Origin: a virus
DNA: 22,089 nt
Virus record (IMG/VR): IMGVR_UViG_3300046001_004479
Coordinates: 1-22,089 of that record
Strand: one strand, 5' to 3'
Shown: positions 5,961-12,526 of the stretch, one piece after another
Numbering within the stretch: position 1 is the first letter of the stretch
Layout: the number at the start of each line of letters is the position of its first letter
The notes under the pieces: model-generated
What the model saw: only the letters and a program-made list of their open reading frames with translations
What the model was told of the DNA's origin: nothing
Database searches by the model: none
Position numbers and translations under genes: made by a program

Positions 5961-6782
5961 TTAAAATTTAAAATTATTTTTTATCATTTCGTCGAAACAT
6001 TGTTTTATTCCTATTTCAAAAGCTCCGTTTTCAATTTCGTTGATCGTTTTTTGATTATCTAAAACCTCCGAAAGTATTTGTATTTTCTTTTTGTAATCTT
6101 TAAAGGTTTTCGCTTCGCTTGTTTTAAACGTTTCTAAGGCTGTTTTTTCGTTTTCCTTTAATTCCACCTCTGAAAAGGTTTTAACTTCGTGAAAACTTAC
6201 TAAACTGTTAAAAACTAGCCTTGCTGTCGTATGTCCTAAAACAATTGTTTTGTAAATCTTATAATTTTCAAACATAGGCTTTAAAATTACATTGTCGTAT
6301 TCCATTTGGGCGCGGGCTTTCTCAATACTATTCGGGGCAACGTCCAAAACTTTTGTTTTTTCTTTGTTTTGAATCAATAAATTTAAACTCGCTTTCTCTC
6401 TGTGTGATCTATACGCCCCCATAATTGAAGCGAAGTACTCAGGTGAAAAATTATTATAGTGTTTCGCTATCCTTTCAACGTCTCCATTCCTTGAGGTTAT
6501 ATTTAAATCCCCTTTGACTGCCATTGTAAAAGCTGTTTTTATTTCTTCGACTGCGTAAAATTTAAAATTGTCTTTAACGAATTGAATTAAAAAAGATCGC
6601 GTTAACCCTTTTGGGATTGAAGCCTCAGGGAGTCCCGTAGCTGCAAAACAATAAGCCAGCGCCTTTTTAATTTCGTCGTCGTCGGAGTTATGAATTTTCA
6701 AAGGGTGCGAAATTGCGTCCTCAATCCTCAATGAAAGCGCGTAAGCCTTCGTCGGTTGTTTGATTTCTAAGTTTGTTTCCAT
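5961..6782 (-). CDS. Hypothetical protein of the replication operon (273 aa)
   Basis: The product is a soluble, largely helical protein with no nucleotide-binding motif that I can see. The central part (residues 60 to 140) includes LTRSFLIQFVKDNFKFY and HYNNFSPEYFASIMGAYR. The C-terminal half is charged and coiled-coil-like. Its start at 6782 lies 62 bases inside the end of the initiator gene, an unusually long overlap, and there is no later ATG before about residue 87. It sits directly downstream of the winged-helix initiator, where phages often keep a helicase loader or helper. A loader role is possible from position, but the absence of a Walker motif argues against a DnaC-type ATPase. Confidence 0.7.
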   Translation of the reverse strand: METNLEIKQPTKAYALSLRIEDAISHPLKIHNSDDDEIKKALAYCFAATGLPEASIPKGLTRSFLIQFVKDNFKFYAVEEIKTAFTMAVKGDLNITSRNGDVERIAKHYNNFSPEYFASIMGAYRSHREKASLNLLIQNKEKTKVLDVAPNSIEKARAQMEYDNVILKPMFENYKIYKTIVLGHTTARLVFNSLVSFHEVKTFSEVELKENEKTALETFKTSEAKTFKDYKKKIQILSEVLDNQKTINEIENGAFEIGIKQCFDEMIKNNFKF

Positions 6783-7422
6783 TTTGTGTTGGTTTTAAAT
6801 AAGGTAAAGTATTTTTTAATTTAGTTTTCCAATTTTTTATTTCTTTATTATTCCCGTCCTTCCATTGATTATCCACCCAAGACTCATATTTTGCTTTTAC
6901 GGAAAATTGAAAAGAGTTAAAATCAAATTGAGTTATTTCATTTTTGAAAAAATCTAAAAACTCTTCAATACTTGGCACCCCTTCATGTTTAATTGTTATA
7001 TTGTTTAATTGTTCATTGTTATATTGTTTATCTATACTAACAATGCTTTGACTTTGCTTTGTACTGTGCTTTGACAATGCTTTGTCTAGTGCTTTGGTAG
7101 GTGCTTTGGTAGGTGCTTTGGTATTTTTTACAATAGCAATTATATTGCTAGAGTATTGATTTTTGCTAGTTTCAACCATTTTTATAAAGCCAAATTCTAC
7201 TAAATCATTTAAACCAGTTGAATAAGTCCTCCAGTTTTTAACTCCGATAGCTTCCATAACCATCTGAGAGGGTAGCCCAAATTTTGGTTTCCATCCTAAT
7301 CTATTACAATGTTCAATAGCAAAAAAATAAATAGCATAATGAATTGGCTTAACTTTGTGTGGATTATCAAAACACCAGTCACAAAATACCCTCGAAAGCT
7401 CGTAACTGTTCATATTATTCAT
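6721..7422 (-). CDS. Winged-helix replication initiator-like protein
   Basis: The N-terminal about 100 residues look like a winged-helix DNA-binding domain, with LPSQMVMEAIGVKNWRTYST as the likely recognition helices and LVEFGFIKMVE leading to the wing. A polar, repetitive linker (residues 101 to 145, with KAPTKAPTKALDKAL) joins it to a C-terminal domain, SIEEFLDFFKNEI to KNWKTKLKNTLPYL. This matches the layout of phage replication initiators such as lambda O: DNA-binding domain, linker, helicase-recruiting end. The linker is encoded by the repeat cluster described separately, as the lambda origin lies inside gene O. The ATG at 7422 overlaps the HNH gene by eight bases; a second ATG four codons later (MNSYE) is possible. 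Confidence 0.75.
   Translation of the reverse strand: MNNMNSYELSRVFCDWCFDNPHKVKPIHYAIYFFAIEHCNRLGWKPKFGLPSQMVMEAIGVKNWRTYSTGLNDLVEFGFIKMVETSKNQYSSNIIAIVKNTKAPTKAPTKALDKALSKHSTKQSQSIVSIDKQYNNEQLNNITIKHEGVPSIEEFLDFFKNEITQFDFNSFQFSVKAKYESWVDNQWKDGNNKEIKNWKTKLKNTLPYLKPTQNGNKLRNQTTDEGLRAFIED
6992..7030. repeat. AT-rich 16-bp direct repeat, candidate unwinding element
   Basis: The sequence ATTGTTATATTGTTTA occurs exactly at 6992 to 7007 and again at 7015 to 7030. The 23-bp offset is not a multiple of three, so it is not a protein repeat. It borders the cluster of 7-bp repeats on one side. An AT-rich repeated tract next to initiator sites is the usual form of a DNA-unwinding element. Confidence 0.75.
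7044..7120. repeat. Seven-copy iteron array, candidate replication origin
   Basis: TGCTTTG (CAAAGCA on the coding strand) occurs at 7044, 7055, 7067, 7078, 7090, 7102 and 7114, with spacings of 11, 12, 11, 12, 12 and 12 bp. This is close to one helical turn each, so all copies face the same side of the DNA. Copies are read as AAA-GCA, x-AAG-CA or AAA-GC-x in different frames of the host gene, so the repeat is conserved as DNA, not as peptide. The array lies within the initiator gene, between the AT-rich direct repeat and a dyad at 7134 to 7150. This resembles iteron origins of phages and plasmids. Confidence 0.8.
7134..7150. repeat. 7-bp dyad beside the iteron array
   Basis: TAGCAAT (7134 to 7140) and ATTGCTA (7144 to 7150) form a perfect inverted repeat around TAT. 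It lies 13 bp from the last 7-bp repeat, on the side opposite the AT-rich direct repeat. It may be part of the proposed origin; alone it would not be notable. Confidence 0.55.
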
Positions 7423-7951
7423 TTTTAATTTTATTCCAAACTATCCCGCAAAAATATTTGATAGCCTTACTAGAATCATTTATTTTTAAACATGCTATCT
7501 CCATAGCTTCCTCAACTTCTTCAAATCCAATTTTAATAATAAATTGTTTTATTTGAAGTTTAAAACGATCATTTAAGCACCAACCCTCATAACAAGAACT
7601 ATAAATTTTATCTATTGCGGAAACTTGAGAATCAATTATTTTTTTTTCAGCTAACAAGATTTTTTTAAATTGCTTATATTGTTCTTGAGCAATACTTAAA
7701 CGCTCCATTTTTTCAACTGTTGAAATAGGCATTAATGTTAACTCGCGCGCTCCTTTGCCTCTATTACAATCAAAACATGAAGTTATTAAATTTTCAAAAT
7801 CATTTAACCCACCATTTTTAACAGGGATAATGTGATCTACTTCTAAAGGTACTTTTGGAGGTTTCGCGCTACAATATTGACAAGTAAATAAATCTCTTTT
7901 AAATACTTCAAAACGCATTTTTTTAGTTAATGGTTTTCTTTTATTATTCAT
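7415..7951 (-). CDS. HNH endonuclease with zinc-binding cysteines
   Basis: The 178-residue product has the full HNH pattern: C24-x2-C27 (CQYC), the catalytic segment EVDHIIPVKNGG at 37 to 48, an Asn in ENLITSC at 55, and C59-x2-C62 (CFDC) followed by NRGKG. The remaining about 110 residues are helical and unassigned. HNH proteins in phages serve as homing endonucleases, packaging nucleases or accessory nucleases. The position first in a replication operon, far from the head genes, argues against the packaging role. The start at 7951 (MNNKRKPL) is chosen because upstream sequence in the same frame is leader RNA and promoter. No intron or split host gene is visible nearby, so homing is possible but unproven. 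Confidence 0.85.
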   Translation of the reverse strand: MNNKRKPLTKKMRFEVFKRDLFTCQYCSAKPPKVPLEVDHIIPVKNGGLNDFENLITSCFDCNRGKGARELTLMPISTVEKMERLSIAQEQYKQFKKILLAEKKIIDSQVSAIDKIYSSCYEGWCLNDRFKLQIKQFIIKIGFEEVEEAMEIACLKINDSSKAIKYFCGIVWNKIKNE

Positions 7952-7958
7952 AGTAAAC

Positions 7959-8194: not shown

Positions 8195-8938
8195 TTAAAT
8201 TTCGACAATTACGCGATTATCAAAGTATTTTATTGAATCCCCAACTTTTGCCCCGTTCCATTCGTTTAAATACGTTTCAAAGTCCTCTTTTTTCCAACGG
8301 TCTGAGCCCGCAGCATTTAAAAACTTTTTTCTTATGTCGGTTCTTAACATTGAATAGTGATGTAAAATGATTTCTGTTTCCTCGAAAACGTGTAAATTCT
8401 CGCGGGGTTCTACATTTACCGACGGGTCAGTTAAAAAATTATAGGGTTTTGCGCTTATCTTAGTGTTTAAATTCAATTTATGGATAAACGGCATGTAATA
8501 GTTTTCCAAAGGTTCTAAACGCCAGTTTTCACGTTTGTAGTATGTAAACATTCTTGTTAATGTTACATCACAATTATTTTTTAAAACAAACTCTTTACCA
8601 GCTTCAATGTGTTCTTTTGTATAAACATGATCGCAAGCGCTCAAAATAAAATGAGTCGCCCCATATTTACGCGCCGCCTCAATCAAATAATTGTGTTTTA
8701 AACGTTCGTTAAGCTTTGAGTTTGCGCGCGGCTCAGGGGTGTAAAATATTACAATTACTTTCGGAAAATTGCGATAAATATAATTTATTTCTTTTCCGAA
8801 GTTTTCGTTTATATTTCCGTTGTTACTTTCTCTTTGAACGCTTAAAATAATTGTGTCAACGTTGGGGCTCATTTTTTCAAGTGAATGTAACAATTGTTCG
8901 AACCCGTCGAAATATGTATAACAAAGCGCGAGTTTCAT
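8195..8938 (-). CDS. GT-A-type glycosyltransferase, last gene of the cassette
   Basis: The 247-residue product starts like a GT-A nucleotide-sugar-binding fold, MKLALCYTYFDGFEQLLHSL. It has alternating strands and helices (DTIILSVQRES, KVIVIFYTPEPRANSKLNERL) and a metal-binding DxD-like position in FILSACDHVY at about residues 98 to 106. A later histidine-rich stretch, EIILHHYSMLR, is typical of the acceptor-side half. No signal peptide or membrane segment is present, so it acts in the cytoplasm. Its ATG overlaps the stop of the acyltransferase gene (ATGA), indicating translational coupling. The donor sugar and acceptor cannot be read from sequence. Family assignment is by motif and layout. 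Confidence 0.75.
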   Translation of the reverse strand: MKLALCYTYFDGFEQLLHSLEKMSPNVDTIILSVQRESNNGNINENFGKEINYIYRNFPKVIVIFYTPEPRANSKLNERLKHNYLIEAARKYGATHFILSACDHVYTKEHIEAGKEFVLKNNCDVTLTRMFTYYKRENWRLEPLENYYMPFIHKLNLNTKISAKPYNFLTDPSVNVEPRENLHVFEETEIILHHYSMLRTDIRKKFLNAAGSDRWKKEDFETYLNEWNGAKVGDSIKYFDNRVIVEI

Positions 8939-9447
8939 CGTTTCAATTCTTTTGCTGGATTGCCAACAACGACCGCCCCAGCCTCAACGTGTTTTATTAC
9001 AACTGAGCCCATTCCTACAATCGATCGCTCCCCAATTATAACGCGGTTACGAATAACAGAACCGAGCTTTATTTTAGCAAAGTTTAAAATTTTAACATAA
9101 CCCCCAACAATTACGCCGCTGCAAATTTCTGTTTTACTTTGAATTTCTGCATTGTGTCCTATGTGAGAATGAGCCATAATAATATTGTCATGTCCTATTT
9201 TAGTGACTGTTTTTGTCGCTGGTCTTTGAATACTTACAAACTCAGAAATTACGTTATTATTCCCAATAGAAACCGAGCCTTTGAAGTCGTTTTGTTTTAC
9301 GTCTCTTATTTCACCGTTGCCACCGATCACACAAAAAGCTCCTATTGTGTTGCCTATTCCTAGTTTTACGTTTGGGTGAACTATTGCGGTTTTGTGTATA
9401 GAATTACCGTCTATATTTATAAAATCGTCGTTATACAAATCTTTCAT
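8935..9447 (-). CDS. Left-handed beta-helix (hexapeptide-repeat) acyltransferase
   Basis: The 170-residue product is built of hexapeptide repeats: IHKTAIVHPNVKLGIGNTIG, SIGNNNVISEFVSI, KIGHDNIIMAHSHIGHNAEI and GERSIVGMGSVV. It ends in VVVGNPAKELKR, the usual C-terminus of sugar O- or N-acetyltransferases of the LpxA/LbetaH group. The histidines in MAHSHIGHNAEI resemble the catalytic region of LpxA-type enzymes. It probably forms a trimer that transfers an acyl group from acyl-CoA or acyl-ACP to a sugar. It overlaps the amidotransferase gene by 17 bases and the last glycosyltransferase gene by four, so all act together. The exact substrate is unknown. The fold call is confident. Confidence 0.87.
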   Translation of the reverse strand: MKDLYNDDFINIDGNSIHKTAIVHPNVKLGIGNTIGAFCVIGGNGEIRDVKQNDFKGSVSIGNNNVISEFVSIQRPATKTVTKIGHDNIIMAHSHIGHNAEIQSKTEICSGVIVGGYVKILNFAKIKLGSVIRNRVIIGERSIVGMGSVVIKHVEAGAVVVGNPAKELKR

Positions 9448-10807
9448 TTATTGGGTTGTTTAGGTTATTAATTAATTTATCAGTCCATTGGTCGTTATTG
9501 ATATAAGGATTTGAAAACCCTTTTTTTGAGCCGCTTAAAACTTCGGCGTCCAGCCCCGAAATATCCTTTAAAATTCGTTTGTCTTTTAAATATTCGTCGG
9601 GCAAAGATAAAGCAAAATTTACTAAGTCATTATCCAAAAGCGGGTACCGTGTTTCAAGTGTAAAAAACCCCCCTATTGTGTCCTCAACGTTTAAAACGCC
9701 TCGCAAAAAAAGTAAATCGTATTCAAAATGAGTTTTGCAGTAGTTTTTATCTTCGCCCTCGTTTGTTCGTTTTATTACTTCGTTTATTGGTTTACTTAAT
9801 CTGTGAGGATAGCCTCCGAAAAATTCATCCCCACCAGCACCCGAATAAAGAACCTCGCAAAACTTAGAAGCTAAAGAGGTTAAAGCTACATTTGTATAAC
9901 TGCTCCCAGCTTTGGGGTCGTCAAGGATTGAAACTGTTTTATCTATCCAATTATTAAAAAGATCGTTATTACAAATAATTGCGTAATGTTCCCCCGTTGA
10001 ATTTAATTTTATGTTTTCAATTTCTGAAAATTTAGGCTCAACGTAATCAACTGAAAATGTATAGTCGGGTTCTAAATAGTTTGCAATTATTCCCGAGTCA
10101 ATCCCACCGCTCAAGAAAACACCCGTTTTCAAATCTGTTTTGTTTCGCTGGATTGATTTAATAAATAAATCTAAAAGCTTTCGGCGGGCGTCGTTATAAG
10201 AAATTGACTTATCTTTTTCAATCTTTGGAAAAGGTAGCGTTTTAACTCGTTCTATTCCATTGTAAAGCGTTCCTTTATTCATTACACCTAAACTATACTT
10301 TAAATCTTCTAAAGCGTCAGGATTTAACGTTATTTGAGGGTTTGCCGCTAATATGCTTTTAACCTCCGAAGAAATAAAAGTTTTACCGTTGTCGTCTTTG
10401 TATTTGTAAAGCTGTTTAATGCCGTAACGATCAGTAAAATAATACCAGCCGCAAGGGCAATAATACAAAACAGCAAAGAACCCGTTTAACTCGTCTAATT
10501 TGTCCCCATTGAACCGACCTAAGAACAAAGCCAAAAGTTCAGTATCGCAATTGGTTTTTAATTCAAAGTCGTATTTTTCCGCTAGTTCTTTGTAATTTGA
10601 AATAAAACCGTTTAACCAAACCGAAACCCCTTTACTTTCGAAAGGTTGCGAGGGTGCATTTTCATCTGTAATAGGTAGCCAGTCAAATTGAATAACCGCC
10701 CGACCTATAAAAGATAAATTACTTTGAACGCCCCGAGGTGACGAAGCGCCGACCATTAAAGAAATGTCGTTAACATTCCCGTTTATTACTGCATTTATTC
10801 CGCACAT
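9431..10807 (-). CDS. Glutamine-dependent asparagine-synthetase-type amidotransferase
   Basis: The protein begins MCGI, so Cys2 is free to act as the N-terminal nucleophile of a class II glutamine amidotransferase. R25 (SPRG), the LNG at 65 to 67 and CDTE at 87 to 90 fit the rest of that site. The C-terminal half has the ATP pyrophosphatase loop SGGIDS at 233 to 238 and GAGGDEFFGGY at 323 to 333, both hallmarks of AsnB-like synthetases. At 458 residues it is shorter than typical AsnB (about 550 to 630). Enzymes of this family either make asparagine or, in O-antigen clusters (for example WbpS), amidate uronic acids on sugars. Here it is embedded between glycosyltransferases and an acyltransferase, so sugar amidation is more likely. 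The catalytic residues look intact. Confidence 0.9.
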   Translation of the reverse strand: MCGINAVINGNVNDISLMVGASSPRGVQSNLSFIGRAVIQFDWLPITDENAPSQPFESKGVSVWLNGFISNYKELAEKYDFELKTNCDTELLALFLGRFNGDKLDELNGFFAVLYYCPCGWYYFTDRYGIKQLYKYKDDNGKTFISSEVKSILAANPQITLNPDALEDLKYSLGVMNKGTLYNGIERVKTLPFPKIEKDKSISYNDARRKLLDLFIKSIQRNKTDLKTGVFLSGGIDSGIIANYLEPDYTFSVDYVEPKFSEIENIKLNSTGEHYAIICNNDLFNNWIDKTVSILDDPKAGSSYTNVALTSLASKFCEVLYSGAGGDEFFGGYPHRLSKPINEVIKRTNEGEDKNYCKTHFEYDLLFLRGVLNVEDTIGGFFTLETRYPLLDNDLVNFALSLPDEYLKDKRILKDISGLDAEVLSGSKKGFSNPYINNDQWTDKLINNLNNPINERFV

Positions 10808-11694
10808 TTTACAATTGAGTTAAATTTATTTCTTAGTTCGGTTTCTTCTTTGCCTTTTACAAAGTTAGTATTTTCCCACAGTTCAAACGGTGTCATATTT
10901 ACGGCGCTCTTTACATCAAAAGCGAAAACGTTTTTATCTTTTAATCTGAAAACCTCGCTAGTGTGCGGCGTTGTTTTCAATTTGTTTTGCATCGAATCGT
11001 CTAAAATAGTACTATGTTTGTTTTCCCAAACAGCCCACCCCCATTTATTCAAAAGGTTTGAAGATATTAAACGACCAGCCCCGCAAGTGTGACCAATTCG
11101 AGGGGTGTCGGTATATCCACCCCAATAAGTAAAAGCCTTTGTTTGCGTGTCGTAAAAATACCAATCCAATACAGCCACATAGTCAATGTTTTTGATCATG
11201 TATGAATAGTAAACCTCTAAAAGTTCATTTGTTATAAGGTCGTCAGAACCAACACAAAGGCAAAAATCGACGTTTAACTCCTGAGCTTTTAACATTGTCG
11301 CGTTCATCTTTTGGGCTAAAGGCTGGTTTTCTATTTCAATATAAATAAATCCTTTATCCTCGACCATTTGACGGGATTTCGCGCCCTCAGAACCCGCAAC
11401 GATTACAACAATATCAATGTCATTATGTTTCAATTTGTTTGTTGCGTTTGCGAACATTTCGAAAACTTCGGGACGTTGCCAAACCCCTGTAATTATAGCT
11501 AGTCTTTTTTTCCATTTCGGGGCGTTGTCAATATGTTTAAGCGAATGAGAATAAATAATAATTCTCTTTTTAATTAAGCCCTCTAAAACTTCATTGTTAA
11601 TAAAATCGGTCTCGCTAAATTCTTGACCAACTTTTAATAAAGAGCCTTTATGAAAAATTGGTTTTAGTGTTTTATAAATTTTAGTCTGCAGCAT
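10795..11694 (-). CDS. GT-A glycosyltransferase with an extra N-terminal domain
   Basis: From about residue 62 the protein is a GT-A fold: KKRLAIITGVWQRPEVFEMF, IDIVVIVAGSEG, then the metal-binding region CLCVGSDDLITNELL with GSDD at 149 to 152. Later, GHTCGAGRLIS and DDSMQNKL fit the acceptor-side half. Residues 1 to 55 form a separate small domain, with KTLKPIFHKGSLLKVGQEFS and LIKKRIIIYS. It resembles the short beta-rich modules found alone in phage structural operons; that likeness is an impression. The chosen ATG at 11694 overlaps the previous stop as TAATG, and a longer upstream frame is rejected. The gene overlaps the amidotransferase by 13 bases. Donor and acceptor are unknown. Confidence 0.8.
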   Translation of the reverse strand: MLQTKIYKTLKPIFHKGSLLKVGQEFSETDFINNEVLEGLIKKRIIIYSHSLKHIDNAPKWKKRLAIITGVWQRPEVFEMFANATNKLKHNDIDIVVIVAGSEGAKSRQMVEDKGFIYIEIENQPLAQKMNATMLKAQELNVDFCLCVGSDDLITNELLEVYYSYMIKNIDYVAVLDWYFYDTQTKAFTYWGGYTDTPRIGHTCGAGRLISSNLLNKWGWAVWENKHSTILDDSMQNKLKTTPHTSEVFRLKDKNVFAFDVKSAVNMTPFELWENTNFVKGKEETELRNKFNSIVKCAE

Positions 11695-11942
11695 TATTTT
11701 TGTGTTAAAATTAATTGATAACCGACGCCGTTTAAATAACCGACGCAATGAAAAAACCCGTTTATCTCATGTAAAAAAGATATAGTTTCAAAATTCCAAA
11801 TTGTCAAGCCTTTTAATTTGCTTTGAGCTTCAATTTTTGTGTGCGAATATAATTCTAATTCCCGAACGTCACAAACAAAATTTACAAAATGAGTCGTTTG
11901 TGTTCGGTATCTGTTAACGCGTTTTCGTCTTGTTTTTAACAT
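11694..11942 (-). CDS. Small hypothetical protein (82 aa)
   Basis: The product starts with a very basic stretch, MLKTRRKRVNRYRTQ, and continues with no motif I know. It has two cysteines (NFVCDVREL and FFHCVGYL). It overlaps the DnaA-motif gene by seven bases and the glycosyltransferase by one (TAATG), so it is translated as part of the operon. Size and basic start would suit a nucleic-acid-binding protein, but this is weak. Confidence 0.55.
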   Translation of the reverse strand: MLKTRRKRVNRYRTQTTHFVNFVCDVRELELYSHTKIEAQSKLKGLTIWNFETISFLHEINGFFHCVGYLNGVGYQLILTQK

Positions 11943-12526
11943 AGTTTCTCAAATATTAAATTATCTAATTGAGCCAAACAAATCATTTCATTTAACCCCA
12001 TTTCAAGCTGTTTTTTATCGTCGATAATCTCAAAGCTAAACGCTGAAAGGAATTTATCTTTTAACTCAGGGTTAAAACCCTCTAAAGCGTTTAAAATTAC
12101 TTTTGCTGAATGTATAGCGGTTGCATGATCTCTATTAAAAGCAAGCGCCGAAATAGTCCAATTTTTACACTCCAAAGATTTAATAGTTATTCCAACTTGT
12201 CGCCAGTCTTTAATGTCTTGAGAACGATTTTTTATTATTAAGTCCTCGAAAGTATAAGGGCAAACCCTTAAAAAGTTGTCAAAGCTCAAAAGGTTTAAAT
12301 TTATAAACTCAGAAATTTGACCAATGATAACAGGGATTTTATGCTCTTTGTATTTTGACTTTTTAAAAGCCATACTTTCAATTTCAAGAACTCTAATCTT
12401 TGTACAAAGTTTACATTTAATAGTTTTCCCGTCTTTGCGTGCCTTGTTTTTATAAAAGAAACTTAACGGCTTCAAAGTATTGCACGCTGGACAAATTTTG
12501 TCGGTTGCGGTTGTTATTTCTAACAT
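11936..12526 (-). CDS. Zinc ribbon plus DnaA domain IV-like DNA-binding protein
   Basis: The N-terminus has C12-x2-C15 (CPAC) and C38-x2-C41 (CKLC), a zinc-ribbon arrangement. Residues about 124 to 144 read TISALAFNRDHATAIHSAKVI, which matches the DnaA domain IV signature (GRDHTTVLHA in E. coli DnaA) that recognises DnaA boxes through a helix-turn-helix. There is no AAA+ domain or Walker motif in the 196 residues, so this is a stand-alone binder, not an initiator ATPase. It could mark or mask DnaA boxes on phage or host DNA, either recruiting or blocking host replication. It lies just upstream of the sugar-modification cassette, and its first bases overlap the 58-residue gene. The motif match is visible; the role is inferred. 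Confidence 0.75.
   Translation of the reverse strand: MLEITTATDKICPACNTLKPLSFFYKNKARKDGKTIKCKLCTKIRVLEIESMAFKKSKYKEHKIPVIIGQISEFINLNLLSFDNFLRVCPYTFEDLIIKNRSQDIKDWRQVGITIKSLECKNWTISALAFNRDHATAIHSAKVILNALEGFNPELKDKFLSAFSFEIIDDKKQLEMGLNEMICLAQLDNLIFEKLC

Follow-up and report, generated by a model that had tools for sequence, protein, structure and literature searches.

A gene on the viral DNA record IMGVR_UViG_3300046001_004479 very probably contains the replication origin on which its own product acts, an iteron-type theta origin of a kind found across a family of Bacteroidota phages. The window, that is, the whole stretch of DNA analyzed, is the complete 22,089-base IMG/VR record, which is classed as linear and is probably a fragment. 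The initiator gene (6721 to 7422, minus strand) is a 233-amino acid open reading frame (ORF) encoding a predicted winged-helix N-terminal domain (N-domain), a linker, and a helical C-terminal domain (C-domain). Two phased repeat arrays, A and B, lie within the gene, separated by a conserved joint. Both arrays are under selection as DNA, and array B keeps its period while the peptide that it encodes varies.

Phased repeats inside the putative initiator gene

Array A (7044 to 7120, minus strand) consists of seven CAAAGCA iterons, read on the plus strand as TGCTTTG, that recur every 11 or 12 bp in the linker-coding part of the gene. An initial annotation, made from the sequence alone, had located the copies at 7044, 7055, 7067, 7078, 7090, 7102, and 7114, and all of these coordinates were confirmed. 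Because the steps in the coding direction are 12, 12, 12, 11, 12, and 11, the array passes through all three reading frames (2, 2, 2, 2, 1, 1, and 0 in coding-strand order). Only four TGCTTTG copies were found elsewhere on both strands of the 22 kb, and shuffled versions of the window had a mean of 4.7 copies and never 11.

The simplest alternative is that the repeats reflect a Lys/Ala/Gln/Ser-rich peptide repeat and have no function as DNA. The linker peptide, KALDKALxKHxTKQxQS, is indeed conserved in its own right. However, when the linker of the window was recoded synonymously according to family codon usage, it retained a mean of 0.54 CAAAGCA copies, compared with the seven actually present, and seven were reached in 0 of 100,000 trials. 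As recoding of the actual peptide never yielded seven copies, array A is not a by-product of the peptide. The same test gave p<0.01 for 28 of 33 genes found by protein similarity. Codon choice at the motif also differed sharply from that in the rest of the same genes, with rare codons used precisely where CAAAGCA requires them: GCA for Ala (99% vs 43%), AGC for Ser (84% vs 15%), GAC for Asp (91% vs 27%), ACC for Thr (83% vs 17%), and AAG for Lys before His or Gln (68% vs 25%). The Fisher values for these shifts overstate independence, since the relatives share descent; the per-gene simulations and the sizes of the shifts are unaffected. These tests, with the copies in three frames, refute the peptide-only explanation, to which we assign practically no weight. 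They also bear out two statements of the initial annotation, that copies in three frames could not arise from a peptide repeat and that, if they formed an origin, alignment of related initiator genes would show them persisting at the DNA level, where strong synonymous-site constraint was found.

The spacing of the iterons is a family property. The arrays of the family hold five to nine short asymmetric CAAAGCA units. At least five copies of NAAAGCA were present in 76 of 85 nonredundant relatives, at spacings of 11 (111 times) or 12 (273 times); a missing copy leaves a spacing of 23, 24, or 35, and other spacings are almost absent. Part of this set came from a pattern search, so the sets found by protein weigh most. 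A profile of the N-domain only, for which the scan pattern lies outside the linker, retrieved 435 loci, and at least four array A copies were present in 64 of the 67 distinct sequences from it. When viral contigs were scanned for the pattern alone (three phased copies), without protein information, at least 114 new loci were obtained, and the same gene family was present in 94 of the 114 listed. Phased pairs occurred in 14 of 18 longer records (39 to 58 kb), in one cluster per record, and a reversed control pattern gave none.

Between the arrays lies the joint TATA(G/A)ATAAAC (7026 to 7036, minus strand), conserved among alignable relatives. In 66 of 71 of these, the last iteron starts 15 nt before the ATA of the joint, and the Ile codon of the joint is likewise ATA in 66 of 71. 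Array B (6985 to 7028, minus strand), the proposed unwinding element, was defined by period, chain-length, and stability tests. It comprises six (A/T)AC units at steps of 8, 7, 8, 8, and 8, with plus-strand G at 7026, 7018, 7011, 7003, 6995, and 6987. The initial annotation had reported two exact copies of the 16-bp sequence ATTGTTATATTGTTTA at 6992 and 7015; both are present, but they do not form a stand-alone pair, being part of the longer array with its 7- to 8-nt period. Pairs of (A/T)AC at 7 or 8 nt numbered 278, compared with 112 in a synonymous control and 42 in a codon-order control, and further distance peaks appeared at 14 to 16 and 21 to 24. The unbroken chain averaged 4.75 units (4.8 in the protein-found subset) vs 1.54 in the control. 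The peptides encoded over array B vary (KQETIKQETI, KQLNKEQLNK, and YKYTNIQ), whereas the DNA pattern is constant. Array B is also the least stable segment of the gene, with a family mean of -42.7 kcal/mol per 40 bp.

One further element of the initial annotation, a 7-bp dyad (TAGCAAT-TAT-ATTGCTA), is present at 7134 to 7150. It was rejected as an origin part, since just 2 of 70 relatives have it in perfect form and it probably arose by chance.

These features suggest how such an origin might work. The winged-helix N-domain would bind the CAAAGCA iterons head to tail. With iterons on average 11.7 bp apart, successive subunits would be rotated by ~40 degrees around the duplex, making a spiral complex plausible. 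The resulting nucleoprotein complex would open the adjacent AT-rich array B at a fixed distance, and the C-domain would recruit the helicase or loader, which is frequently the product of the downstream gene. The protein may regulate its own gene in addition. Duplex DNA turns once per 10.5 bp, and the units of array B, with a step of 7.5 nt, are out of register with that turn; they are perhaps read single-stranded. We tentatively raise, as a rather doubtful possibility, that array B is a sequence-coded loading track whose (A/T)AC units are read on single-stranded DNA, one per subunit, after the duplex has opened. RK2 and bacterial oriC have strand-specific repeats of comparable purpose, but the track proposed here would lie within a coding gene.

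The proposed initiator family and its exchangeable domains

An AlphaFold2 model of the protein was confident over the N-domain (residues 1 to 98; 7120 to 7413, minus strand), the proposed iteron-binding domain. Predicted local distance difference test (pLDDT) values were mostly 91 to 98 in this block, and secondary structure elements followed the order H-H-E-H-H-E-E. Beyond it, the model showed a disordered linker and then a helical C-domain. RepA_N initiators (4pql, 4pt7, 5kbj, and 4pta) were among the structural matches of the model, and RepA structures matched at Z 7.9 to 9.2. Examples are 4pql_B (Z 9.2, root mean square deviation [rmsd] 3.8, 106 residues), 4pt7_B (Z 8.6, rmsd 4.0, 107 residues), and 5kbj_H (Z 8.6, rmsd 3.4, 106 residues). 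Lambda O was absent from the structural match lists, for which the C-domain of the window was not searched alone, and its absence excludes nothing. A search of solved structures by sequence gave no match, and no relative was found in a plasmid collection.

A protein search identified 59 viral loci and also matched five Polaribacter phages (Danklef_1 to _5). Two metagenome-assembled genomes, labeled Ferruginibacter and Maribacter, carry relatives by the same type of search. These named records point to Bacteroidota as the host group. PHROG families named 'replication initiation O-like', a name that is itself an annotation, matched 33 of 73 members, and other relatives matched families named 'replication initiation protein', 'replisome organizer', 'primosomal protein', and 'DnaD-like helicase loader'. 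Where the C-domain was tested alone, these matches ran through it. The designation of the gene product as a winged-helix initiator in the initial annotation thus agrees with the high-confidence N-domain model and, for its role in replication, with the PHROG matches of relatives and their DnaB-like neighbors.

Several observations weigh against an origin with its initiator. Fur/Zur, MarR, and LexA proteins are likewise among the structural matches of the model, with Fur/Zur and other winged helices scoring equal to or better than RepA; because such regulators match too, the fold leaves the function undecided. The protein of the window alone had no significant match in Pfam, NCBIfam, or PHROG, and its C-domain alone had none in Pfam or PHROG. 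No switch in GC skew was found at the array in the window, in the complete circular genome of Danklef_1, or in 12 longer IMG/VR records, and only 3 of 13 genomes had their detrended skew minimum close to the array, at a distance within 3% of genome length. The distances from minimum to array in Danklef_1 (557 bp), G009 (479 bp), and G013 (800 bp) are too weak a signal to use. The skew follows the coding strand and is therefore uninformative either way, so that the skew analysis proposed in the initial annotation could be computed and gave no usable answer. Finally, both protein binding and origin activity are properties that we infer.

The first of these observations feeds the strongest competing explanation, in which array A is an operator and the protein is a transcription regulator that binds within its own gene, represses that gene or a neighbor, and does not initiate replication. 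The N-domain fold is common to MarR- and Fur-type regulators, and the copies in the Polaribacter phages are annotated 'transcriptional regulator'. On the other side, relatives have C-domains that match families of replication-initiation, replisome-organizer, and primosomal proteins, and a DnaB-like helicase is often encoded by the next gene. Array B, a stretch of unstable DNA at a fixed distance, is expected of an origin rather than of an operator. We consider the operator explanation improbable.

The C-domain (6724 to 6984, minus strand), proposed to recruit the helicase or its loader, was delimited by C-domain clusters and by junction pairs of relatives. The C-domains of relatives fell into 20 clusters, seven of them with at least two members, and all were joined to one kind of N-domain and array. 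Five pairs of genes shared 92 to 95% identity between the start codon and the joint but only 20 to 53% beyond it, indicating that C-domains have been exchanged at array B. No clean one-to-one relation was seen between C-domain cluster and type of neighboring gene. This switching of C-domains is what would be seen if the repeats were a recombination joint, kept because they aid the exchange. Such a function leaves unexplained why spacings are kept exactly at 11/12 and 7/8, why the distance to the joint is fixed at 15 nt, and why selection is strong in every lineage. Exchange is more likely a consequence of the conserved linker, and we regard a recombination joint as very unlikely. The DNA repeats largely determine the linker peptide, so that the N-domain and the putative origin would be passed on as one unit, and it is the C-domains that are swapped.

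In two loci, L060 (5082 to 5525) and L063 (5986 to 6429), the N-domain is truncated after ~75 residues and fused to an unrelated sequence resembling a phosphoribosyltransferase. These fusions are without the iteron linker.

A wholly different N-domain family was reached through a similar C-domain (L061; 42% over query residues 128 to 215). Members of this family (L294 to L301) carry other repeats at the same place in the linker, with a best lag of 11 in 8 of 8 loci. A GGGCAA-based repeat at 11 to 12 bp was present in three of the eight loci and other sequences in five, for at least five different repeat sequences, including GGGCAAGCA (the array of L294), AACAAACGACT, and ACAACAAAGGG. The repeat sequence thus follows the N-domain, which suggests that the N-domain reads the array. 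Such 11-bp linker repeats are possibly a feature of phage initiators in general.

Another initiator-like gene, in L071 near 6760 to 6870, has two 12-bp arrays, one after the other and in opposite orientation: AAAAGCGGTCTG four times and then GACCGCAAAGCA three times. Their opposition is seen in CGGTCTG, the reverse complement of CAGACCG.

Neighboring genes and genome context

Among 79 relatives examined, the largest cluster of downstream proteins (41 sequences) matched DNA primase/helicase and DnaB-like helicase families. The second cluster (12 sequences) has a P-loop motif, which we read as DnaC-like, but only weak library matches. In the window, the next gene (5961 to 6782, minus strand; 273 amino acids) overlaps the end of the initiator gene and occupies the place of the helicase or AAA+ gene of most relatives. 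It belongs to a third type, present in five other members as well, and the scan found only one close relative. Its model is mostly of low confidence, and the top structural matches of the best-supported part include lambda P bound to DnaB (9oa1; Z 5.3, rmsd 3.1, 78 residues). Synteny and this low-confidence model make a lambda P-like loader a weak lead only.

Gene content also bears on whether the array could be a centromere-like site, involved in partition or in a plasmid-like prophage state. Repeats of 11 to 12 bp are used by the ParR and TubR systems. Array A likewise consists of 11- to 12-bp direct repeats that would be read by a winged-helix or similar domain, and some relatives may be temperate. 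No ParM- or TubZ-like gene was seen among the neighbor clusters or the scanned window proteins, the C-domains resemble replication proteins, and partition leaves array B unexplained. A centromere-like site thus seems to us highly unlikely.

An HNH endonuclease gene (7415 to 7954, minus strand) abuts the start of the initiator gene, and HNH-related ORFs were present in ten other loci, several of them directly upstream of the initiator. The HNH gene is possibly a homing-type element beside the origin. Farther away, the gene at 11936 to 12526 (minus strand) encodes an endonuclease VII-like N-terminal part (PHROG) and has a weak match, below the cut-off, to the DnaA C-terminal helix-turn-helix domain (PF08299, E 0.0012). 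In Danklef_1, a gene close to the initiator bears the annotation 'DnaA protein'. DnaA boxes were rejected as a component: matches to TTATCCACA with one mismatch numbered 8 vs 4.9 expected, which is no enrichment, and one site lies at 6869. The region at 8195 to 11748 (minus strand) contains an asparagine synthase-like gene and, by inspection, glycosyltransferase-like and left-handed beta-helix acyltransferase-like ORFs; this cluster perhaps serves surface or glycan modification. Family scans of the window proteins also revealed, among others, portal, RecT, and SbcC-like genes, and an Rfam scan of the window gave no match. Among the longer records, G001 and G009 (the records behind L056 and L087) have terminal direct repeats of 99 and 127 bp and may therefore be complete genomes.

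Relation to known origins

No description of an intragenic iteron arrangement in Bacteroidota or Flavobacterium phages was found in the literature searched, and the Danklef paper does not mention iterons. With the arrays, an origin can be predicted for a sizable group of Bacteroidota phages, the N-domain profile alone having found 435 loci. The arrays also offer a strong example of DNA with two simultaneous messages: array A forces ~30 linker residues and array B the next 15, so that this part of the protein would be translated from an origin. The spacing is common to unrelated N-domains even though their repeats differ, and a rule for finding origins would therefore be to seek 11/12-bp phased repeats in the linkers of winged-helix phage initiators. 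The phages exchange the C-domain, the part that probably contacts a host or phage helicase, and retain the predicted origin together with its recognition domain. The proposed opening of the origin is directly testable by synonymous recoding.

The initial annotation had likened the arrangement to ori-lambda within gene O, and the comparison is apt. In lambda, iterons and a flanking AT-rich region lie in the middle of gene O, whose N-domain binds DNA and whose C-domain binds the loader P, the two being joined by a flexible linker (PMC6022878, PMC7466680). Both systems place iterons and an adjacent AT-rich region in the interior of the initiator gene. Unlike the 18-bp lambda iterons with dyad symmetry, those of the CAAAGCA family have a 7-bp asymmetric core at 11/12-bp steps, and the family adds a second phased array. 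None of the 73 members had a Pfam match to known O proteins.

The origins of RepA_N plasmids are at least as close. In pSK41 and pTZ2162, a winged-helix N-domain binds boxes in the center of its own gene (PMC5703833). The linker encoded by the origin DNA is dispensable there, and C-domains are specific to the lineage or host (PMC5703833). The CAAAGCA family follows the same plan, with a predicted winged-helix N-domain, a linker encoded by the putative origin, and a variable C-domain. Semi-palindromic iterons converging on a poly-A tract are the usual form in RepA_N plasmids (PMC7145576), whereas CAAAGCA iterons are neither semi-palindromic nor converging on poly-A. RepA_N initiators belong to Firmicutes plasmids, the CAAAGCA family to Bacteroidota phages, and RepA_N (Pfam PF06970) was not among the 11 families listed for the 73 members at E 0.01.

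For array B, the closest comparison is with RK2 oriV, a precedent for strand-specific binding of repeated elements: TrfA attaches to a single strand of the melted region and requires the full set of four 13-mers (PMC4081077). The 13-mers of RK2 lie outside the rep gene and are served by a different initiator family, whereas the units of array B recur at 7- to 8-nt steps inside the gene. Both origins combine iterons with repeated elements in the unwinding region, and array B may play a part similar to that of the RK2 13-mers.
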